From: Aphrocallistes beatrix
Lineage: Eukaryota > Porifera > Hexactinellida > Sceptrulophora > Aphrocallistidae
NCBI GenBank assembly: GCA_963281255.1
Contig: OY725495.1
Coordinates: forward strand, 3,968,001-4,032,000
Direction: 5' to 3'
Length of the DNA stretch: 64,000 nucleotides
The notes under the pieces are model-generated. The model ran no database searches. It saw only the letters and a list, made by a program, of their open reading frames with translations, and was not told where the DNA came from. Shown one piece after another: positions 15,637-38,863 of the stretch (positions are counted from its first letter, which is position 1; each line of letters begins with the position of its first letter). The position numbers and the translations under genes are program-made.

Positions 15637-18600
15637 TTAGTTTAAAATATGATCAGCCGTCTTCCCTTCTTCCAATCTTTTCCACATTTTGGCGTAGAGA
15701 TTTTCAAGGTTTTTCGTGTATAGTTGAGTGTCGAATAGAGGTGACGTCATTCGAGCAGCTCTTATTCTTCGTTTTAACTGTTTTAGCCTAAAACAGGATA
15801 TTCCATTGGTTAAACGAATCAATTTGATGCACCATTCAACTTAAAATTGCGTTTAACTCACAAAAGAGGATCGTTGGCATACTTGGTTGCTATGTCCACA
15901 TACTCATCCCTGGTTGTTGCTATCAACTCTGTGAATCCGAGAGCTGTTAACTGTGAGGAAGCAACTCGAGATGCCAGTGTCTCCATTGTCATTGTCACTA
16001 CCGGGGTGCCTAGAGAATAGAAAGGAGGGATGGAATTTAAGATTTTAATTTCCGGAATCCTTTAATCAGTTTTTTAGCTTTCGATTTGAACGCAAGACCC
16101 AATTTTTAACGTACAAGACGTAGTACATAACAATAATACAAAACTACTTCAACTTAATTCAGGTCATCTGTTACTGTGAACATTTCTGTGTTTGAAGTGT
16201 ATATAATATCCTAACACTAGACTCATACCAAGGATTTATGTTCTTGAATAATCATAACGAGTGTAAGGAACTTTTAGATGGATTATACTCAGATAGTTAT
16301 ACATATGATTTACATAGTCGACTCCGCTTAATAGGGTCACATCGGTCAGAGGACATTTTGGCCCGATTAAGCGGAGAACCCTATTAACTGAAAATATTTT
16401 GTATTAGCTTCTATGTTTGAGAGCTATTCCGGTCCTACCAAAAGTGGCCCGATTAAGCGGTTGACCTGATTAAACAGTGACCCTATTAAGCGGAGTCGCC
16501 TGTATATCTCTTAAATGGCGCTAGATTTTTGCTGACCCATTTCCGGTCAAGTCATTTTGGGCGGGGAAACCTTAGAAAGTGTGGGTCTTTACTATAAATA
16601 GAAATGACCCCAGGTAATTTAAGGGATATACGTATATACAGTTGACTCCGCTTAATCGGGCCACTTTTGGCAGGACCGGAATAGCTGCCACACATAGAAA
16701 CTAATACAAAATATTTTCGGTTAATAGGTTCTCCGCTTAATCGGGGCAAAATGTCCTCTGACCGAGGTGACCCTATTAAGCGGAGTCGACTGTATATATA
16801 TATATATATATACGTATATATAATTTTTTTTTGATAAATCTGTGGTTAAATTGACGGCTAAAATACTGAATACCTAACACCCTACCTGCCCATAACACGT
16901 CCATGCTGGTGGTGTGTCCGTTACAGAGCGGTGTGTCGAGACAGATGTCGGCCAGTCTCCCCCGGCGTACGTGCTCCTCCTTCACAGTCACGTTGCTGAA
17001 GATCACGCGTGACGGGTCCACTTCCATTTCGTGCACTGTCCGCAGGACGTTCGCCTCTCCGGCAGCTGGGAAGCGTAGCAGCCAGAGTACGGATTCCGGA
17101 ACTCGCTTCATTATGTCCACCCAGCTCTACATGGTATTCAGTAATGTTATGCATGTGTAGAACTGTAATTCGAAGTTCGAACAATGTTAAGTTAGGAATT
17201 TGACCAACATGTATAATGGTAGGAATTTGACCAATGGTTGAGGTGATGAGTAGTGTAAGGTTCGATTCCTTTTGACCTGATTTACACAGGATAAGGTTAT
17301 TACTACCATTTTGAAATTAAGATTTTGAAACCAATTCCTATTTAGCTATTGACATACTCCTTGAAGTTATGCTATGACCACTGTTTTCTCGAAATGTTCA
17401 CAAGCCTAGGCTAAAATCATTGGCAATATCTTGTGTGGTATATTATTTCCTGAAGAATTCGTTAGAATGCCTTTAAGCACTGCAAACAATGTACTCAGTT
17501 CTATCATTGAGTTATGACTGACCTTGAGTGTGGGGGGATCTATCTTGTAGAGTTGGTTGAAGTTGCAGAATATGATTCCTCTCTCCGGGAGACCGTAGTG
17601 GGATTTGAGAGTGAGAGGGAGAGTGAGGGGAACCGTGGGAGGGATGGATGTGTCGATAAGTGTCTGTAACGTTAGCTAGAAGGAATTCCATCAATTACTG
17701 AGGATAAAATTCCTTTGTATTAAATGTCTTTTTGAGAGAAATCTTACTATTATAGCAATTGATATTGTAACTCCATTGTATTTATTTGAATTTCAATATA
17801 ATACTAGTCCTTGCCAGAAATACGAGTGTATTTATTCTAATTTCCAATGTGAGAGAGAACAATGATGCGTTTACAATAACATAGTTTCACACCTTGATGG
17901 AATAAATGAGAGTAAACCTAAAAGGTTTTCCTTCTCTTCTGACGAAAGTGAATTCCATACTCTCAATATTGTTTTCGAATTGTGTTCAATTCGTTGTTTA
18001 ATAACAAACAAAAACTGTGGCTCAAACTCAATGAATTCTCTGCAATTCTAACAAGTACAGTACACCTCACTAATCCGAACAGCTCTGTGCCAATGATCGA
18101 AAAAATCGTCCGGATTAGTGAATTTGTTCCGATTAGTGAAATAACACTAATTCAATGGGGTATTAACTACAATAAATTTGCATTGCTGGAATATTAAGAA
18201 TATAATTTTGTTATGACTGCTTTTTAACGAGGTTTCTCAATCTTACTGAAAGATATAAGATTATAAACGTTGATTCAAAGCATAGAGCGAATAAGATTAT
18301 ATTTTGGGTGTTTGGATTGAAAGAATGAAGTGTCGGATGAGCGAGGGTGAATGTACCTGCATTATTCCCTGAGGTAGAACACTCTGCGCTTGTAACTGAT
18401 TATTCTGCACCATCGTCTGTACTATCGACATGTGCATTGGCCAGTGGACTTTGTTGTTAATGAGAATGACACCTGCTTGAGAGTCTATCACTTTGATGTC
18501 ATCAGGTTGTTCCGACCCGTTCCCTTCTTGGAGCAAGTGAGGAAACATATGCCTACATAGTAGAGGCTATTTTAAATGCCCTCAAAGTCGGACGAAAACT

Positions 18601-38863: not shown

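Follow-up and report, generated by a model that had tools for sequence, protein, structure and literature searches.

The window, that is, the whole stretch of 64,000 nt that was analysed (C9:3968001-4032000), contained no N and belongs to an assembly of 100.5 Mb in 28 contigs. Spliced alignment and a hand check yielded a single O-GlcNAc transferase (OGT) gene on the minus strand, with 21 exons and 1003 aa over a span of 23.2 kb, from the ATG at 38863 to the last base of the stop codon at 15637. This rebuilt model matched exactly the span of 15637..38863 given in an earlier note on this DNA. Seven further genes and a dispersed repeat were located in the OGT introns, as follows:

15637..38863, minus strand: OGT (O-GlcNAc transferase, GT41), the host gene; spliced alignment, hand-set exons, splice-site check, Pfam, PDB
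38863-38788, 38072-37919, 29964-29721, 29173-29105, 29039-28923, 28524-28445, minus strand: OGT exons 1-6
28219-28130, 27947-27842, 25396-25155, 24617-24464, 24159-24058, 23981-23802, minus strand: OGT exons 7-12
23301-23146, 23070-22981, 20199-20074, 19552-19404, 18552-18357, 17663-17523, minus strand: OGT exons 13-18
17126-16886, 16009-15862, 15787-15637, minus strand: OGT exons 19-21
20915..22718, plus strand: membrane protein of unassigned family, 584 aa, in OGT intron 14; sequence, open reading frame, hydropathy
26158..27432, plus strand: acyl-CoA dehydrogenase (ACAD), single exon, 424 aa, in OGT intron 8; Pfam, PDB
30698..33447, plus strand: PRMT5, 5 exons, 621 aa, in OGT intron 2; Pfam, PDB, splice sites
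33791..34081, plus strand: bL36-like A, 96 aa, in OGT intron 2; recovered by B, ligand pattern, presequence
34679..35121, no strand assigned: dispersed repeat of about 440 bp, in OGT intron 2 between bL36 A and B
36015..36263, plus strand: bL36-like B, 82 aa, in OGT intron 2; Pfam and NCBIfam matches below cut-off, ligands, presequence
36767..37015, plus strand: bL36-like C, 82 aa, in OGT intron 2; Pfam and NCBIfam matches below cut-off, recovered by B
37319..37564, plus strand: bL36m D, the canonical copy, 81 aa, in OGT intron 2; Pfam and NCBIfam matches over cut-off

The OGT protein was characterized by a TPR array (superhelix) and a GT41 catalytic domain (Pfam Glyco_transf_41, 8.5e-248, plus TPRs), and matched PDB chain 7ntf (human OGT) with 1528 bits, the alignment falling into one block over residues 22-720 and another over 771-1002. 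The segment between residues ~720 and 771 (exons 17-18, 18552-17523) was shorter than in 7ntf. We placed exon 1 (38863-38788), which has no homology support, by hand, and likewise the beginning of exon 2 and the whole of exons 17-18, in place of the aligner output. GT..AG borders were found in all 20 introns; since the aligner permits only GT..AG, this is a consistency check and not independent proof.

Three OGT introns were long, measuring 7954 nt (intron 2, 29965-37918), 2445 nt (intron 8, 25397-27841), and 2781 nt (intron 14, 20200-22980), with a median of 398 nt for the remaining 17. The coding sequence ran uninterrupted across all three, with nothing lost, joining CRRFD to KSASF at intron 2, KEQGK to VQEAE at intron 8, and DLSQ to IPDNG at intron 14. 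Moreover, eight of the ten PF13844 matches in the sponge's own genome were exons of this OGT, the other two corresponding to one diverged gene on contig C1, and in the genome searches OGT and PRMT5 each had a single close match. Given this continuous coding and the distribution of GT41 matches, the OGT exons on both sides of the nested introns most likely belong to one transcript. The second GT41 gene (L012:772-2916, contig C1) consisted of a single exon of 714 aa with TPRs and a hydrophobic, signal-peptide-like N-terminus; its closest PDB sequences were OGT chains (2.1e-78).

All seven guests lay inside single OGT introns, with 262-761 nt separating their coding blocks from the OGT exons on either side (the membrane gene being counted one base too long). 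The earlier note had proposed that three introns of the minus-strand OGT gene contain complete plus-strand genes, namely a membrane protein in intron 14, an acyl-CoA dehydrogenase in intron 8, and PRMT5 with four bL36 genes in intron 2. The gene models and the continuous OGT coding bore this out, the names and intron numbers were correct, and the antisense orientation claimed for every nested gene was found in 7 of 7.

The membrane protein exhibited two hydropathy segments over 1.6. Its 49-nt intron (22414-22462) is a proposal read from a frame change. No Pfam family was found for this protein at E<=1, the part encoded by the first exon (499 aa) had no PDB match, and a search of its own genome returned only its own two exons and no relative.

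The nested ACAD contained the Acyl-CoA_dh N, M, and C domains of Pfam, and its best PDB match was 2pg0 (1.4e-77), a bacterial protein, which led us to consider a recent origin from bacteria. In its own genome, 14 other matches were 27-42% identical, the top-scoring one being 31% identical over residues 30-417. Among bacterial and archaeal genomes, 17 loci were found, 14 of them at 47-64% identity and three at 28-30%; the closest was in a gammaproteobacterial MAG (64%). On a comparison that outside its own genome covered bacteria and archaea only, this ACAD may be an old animal gene or an old transfer.

PRMT5 matched PRMT5_TIM, PRMT5, and PRMT5_C over cut-off, corresponding to the TIM barrel, methyltransferase, and oligomerisation domains, and aligned with PRMT5 chains in PDB over residues 6-621 (613.5 bits). 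Two of the three PF05185 matches in the genome were the nested PRMT5 itself. The third, on contig C11 (C11:3780553-3780879), lay in a 546-aa open frame and was weak yet over the Pfam cut-off (32.6 bits); it is perhaps another arginine methyltransferase.

Elsewhere in the window, two inverted amino-acid transporter ORFs, at 3418-5091 (plus strand) and 5661-7478 (minus strand), shared 1046-nt arms that were 94% complementary, with differing ends. The pattern is suggestive of gene conversion acting on a pair of inverted duplicates.

The remaining four guests, bL36 A to D, were arranged head to tail within 3.8 kb of intron 2. Only D was over the cut-off of the Pfam L36 family (26.1 bits), with 46.3 bits (E 4.6e-12); C (20.9 bits, E 3.9e-4) and B (15.8 bits, E 0.015) were under it. 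The same was observed with NCBIfam rpmJ (cut-off 22.7), where D scored 34.8, B 14.5, and C 11.3, and A had no Pfam or NCBIfam match at E<=1. A genome search with protein B recovered B itself, A (42% identity, E 4.3e-10), and C (E 7.4e-6), and not D. PF00444 recovered two matches, C and D, with only D over cut-off. These searches, with PF00444 and B as the queries, returned no copy beyond A-D, though diverged copies elsewhere could escape these two queries; the control mitoribosomal families L34 and L27 gave one genome match each. Over the whole window, a profile built from the four copies found these same four, as it must, followed by noise that began at E 0.27. It also matched bL36m proteins of yeast and mammals at 5e-9 to 7e-9; as the profile contains D, this match is no independent support for A-C. 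A scan of viral contigs with this profile returned no relative.

By hand alignment, the CxxC..C..H pattern, whose residues we take to be zinc ligands, was kept in all four copies, with one residue more between the third Cys and the last His in A-C than in D. Each copy was a single open frame complete with ATG, presequence, and stop codon. The four presequences were 33-42 aa long (42 in A), contained 3-4 basic and no acidic residues, and had an Arg-Gly end. Judged by composition only, they are mitochondrial presequences.

Four head-to-tail copies in so short a stretch might be alternative exons, or one polycistron resolved by trans-splicing, and not four genes. Leader sequences, predicted on 4% of long reads in the glass sponge A. 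vastus (PMC10282587), lend this some plausibility, as does the lack of a poly(A)-like hexamer in the 400 nt downstream of A. However, each copy has a complete frame of its own, and such hexamers occur close downstream of B, C, and D, which makes the single-unit explanation improbable. Overall, poly(A)-signal-like hexamers were observed up to 400 nt downstream of four of the seven guests (PRMT5, B, C, and D). None was found over this distance after the membrane gene, ACAD, or bL36 A, so neighbouring genes could be co-transcribed. Bacterial-type patterns in 33400-37900 were counted against shuffled sequence (20 versus 20.7 promoters and 0 versus 2.1 terminators, respectively), and carry no meaning for an animal. 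The repeat at 34679-35121 had similar stretches on many contigs, the best being 90% identical among the 40 that were scored of 5790 first-look candidates.

The mature bL36 domains were 17-40% identical between copies. In the hand alignment, A and B shared 19 of 47 sites and the remaining pairs 7-12 of 39-44; identity to D was 10/44 for A, 10/44 for B, and 12/39 for C. First and second codon positions differed at 0.43-0.62 and third positions at 0.60-0.79, the third-position excess being modest. To judge from their sequences, A-D are old copies.

Such divergence would also be expected if A-C were decaying duplicates with no function: their identity to D is low, B and C fall under both family cut-offs and A has no match, and the first two codon positions have changed nearly as much as the third. 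Nevertheless, the frames are still open and the ligand pattern is kept. One 82-codon open frame has a chance of 0.003 at the local stop rate, and the absence of acidic residues from the 152 pooled presequence residues of A-D has a chance of ~4e-5 at the local non-coding rate. Decay of A-C is thus quite improbable.

We read the quartet as a putative lineage-specific expansion of a mitoribosomal protein. To our knowledge, bL36m is known only as a single-copy gene in animals, and none of the literature matches listed described more than one bL36m gene in a sponge, which is a weak negative. The quartet is an uncommon small-gene expansion, and is both the less expected part and the better lead of this locus. 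An AlphaFold2 model of bL36-like A was unusable (mean pLDDT 46).

A contig of 17,996 bases (C28) in the same assembly contained cox1, as identified by a family search, and, as read by eye, atp9 and the gene order atp6-cox3-nad2-nad5-nad1-cob. The cox1 stretch contained 11 AGA, 0 AGG, 11 TGA, and 0 TGG codons, with AGA located where serine is expected in cox1. Three frames set side by side revealed +1 shifts at UGG-GGA, one in cob and two in cox3. The marks of hexactinellid mtDNA have been published, with UGG-GGA shifts in cox3 and nad6 of A. vastus (PMC2267718), and this contig bears them in its atp9, AGR serine sites, gene order, and UGG-GGA shifts, which identify the animal as a glass sponge. 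A ctenophore source, considered in view of the many nested genes of Hormiphora, was rejected on the grounds of atp9, of AGA at the apparent cox1 serine sites, and of the hexactinellid gene order.

According to PMC11452305, bL36m docks in the final steps of large-subunit assembly, along with the placement of rRNA helix 89. It is possible that this animal, with its mitochondrial +1 frameshifts, uses bL36 proteins as alternatives in its mitoribosome. A stronger proposal, in which all four paralogues are functional and form different mitoribosomes, is very unlikely; under it, since bL36m docks so late, its exchange might serve to adjust decoding or late assembly where the mitoribosome must shift frame at UGG-GGA in cob and cox3, and the OGT intron would be a nursery of specialised mitochondrial translation. 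With four old, apparently maintained bL36m copies in a sponge of unusual mitochondrial translation, heterogeneity of ribosomes would become open to test in animal mitochondria.

For the locus as a whole, we favour intronic nesting of a known kind in a compact glass-sponge genome, in which one OGT transcript passes over about four independently expressed antisense loci, and assign this reading a probability of roughly 0.86. The OGT transcript would be spliced over the three long introns, the guests being crossed and removed as intron. About four unrelated loci would have been taken in, in a number and order that we infer, i.e., the membrane protein, ACAD, PRMT5, and an ancestral bL36m, the last of which, once inside intron 2, would have duplicated in tandem to four. 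Each guest most likely has its own 3' end and its own promoter, the promoters being presumed independent. The antisense orientation may be favoured in that neither partner then reads the splice and poly(A) signals of the other.

The same 7 of 7 antisense orientation could be put to a different use, if transcription of PRMT5, and perhaps of other guests, through OGT coupled the expression of the two modifying enzymes, as the earlier note suggested. An antisense effect between OGT and its guests is possible in general, by analogy with other genomes. Some human nested genes have been shown to interfere with their hosts, and a negative correlation with the host occurs for some nested genes (PMC3192792); profiles of hosts and nested genes are often inverse or not significantly correlated (PMC3240667), and a functional link has been a matter of speculation in the case of the conserved Flo-2/GMC nesting (PMC1891103). 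Here, however, the guests are functionally mixed (mitochondrial ribosome, acyl-CoA oxidation, and a membrane protein), we saw no sequence feature pointing to a link between OGT and PRMT5, and, as PMC3192792 cites, hosts and nested genes were uncorrelated overall in one study. Regulatory coupling is accordingly very improbable as an explanation of the nesting. That the arrangement is an assembly or annotation artefact, with OGT exons from separate genes or misplaced guests, is extremely unlikely, given that OGT coding continues over the three introns, that the only other GT41 gene found is diverged and has a single exon, and that the window has no N in an assembly of so few contigs.

Nesting as such is well represented in the published record. 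The literature matches listed for OGT, PRMT5, and sponge included none about a nested gene. In A. vastus, 2432 nested genes, or 12.4% of its genes, are reported, among 19578 genes in 80.32 Mb with 12409 single-exon transcripts (PMC10282587). The same table gives 83 for another glass sponge, Oopsacas minuta, and low counts in some genomes are there attributed to annotation settings as the probable cause. In the ctenophore Hormiphora, 2357 nested genes in 1654 hosts are reported (PMC8527503). Gene finders that forbid nesting would break loci such as OGT, and about one gene in eight is nested in the one manually annotated glass sponge described in PMC10282587.

The earlier note had called seven nested genes in one conserved gene unusual, a judgement that these precedents and those in Drosophila do not support. 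Since four of the seven guests represent a single gene in tandem copies, about four acquisitions would suffice. The long OGT introns amount to 13180 nt for seven genes at about four loci, or one locus per 3.3 kb, a spacing similar to that in A. vastus, where there is one gene per 4.1 kb. In human, about 63% of nested genes lie antisense to their hosts, as cited in PMC3192792; at that rate, the chance of a uniform antisense orientation would be 0.16 for 4 of 4 loci and 0.039 for 7 of 7 genes. The nesting at the OGT locus is of a known kind, and is not clearly more than expected.

Compared with A. vastus, the locus described here shares the sponge class, the kind of arrangement, and the many single-exon genes, and differs in the size of the assembly (100.5 Mb versus the 80.32 Mb of A. 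vastus). Another close counterpart is intron 2 of Flotillin-2 in D. melanogaster, which holds CG14406 and 12 GMC oxidoreductase genes, the 12 all lying on the strand opposite the host (PMC1891103). In both cases, a conserved host carries in its intron 2 a family of uniform orientation that is antisense to it; however, at Flotillin-2 a single gene family occupies a single intron, an arrangement conserved among four insects, whereas here three introns hold unrelated genes. The last intron of CG18675 also contains five genes (PMC3240667), the TipE cluster, which resembles the OGT locus in placing five genes in one intron of a conserved host. Its expression is distinct from that of the host, and it differs from the present locus in consisting mostly of ion-channel subunits and in occupying one intron. 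Finally, the bL36 copies share with known bL36m proteins (3j7y chain 4; yeast RTC6, 3j6b chain 0) a presequence followed by a CxxC..C..H mini-protein, and D is over the Pfam cut-off; the difference lies in the four diverged copies present here.
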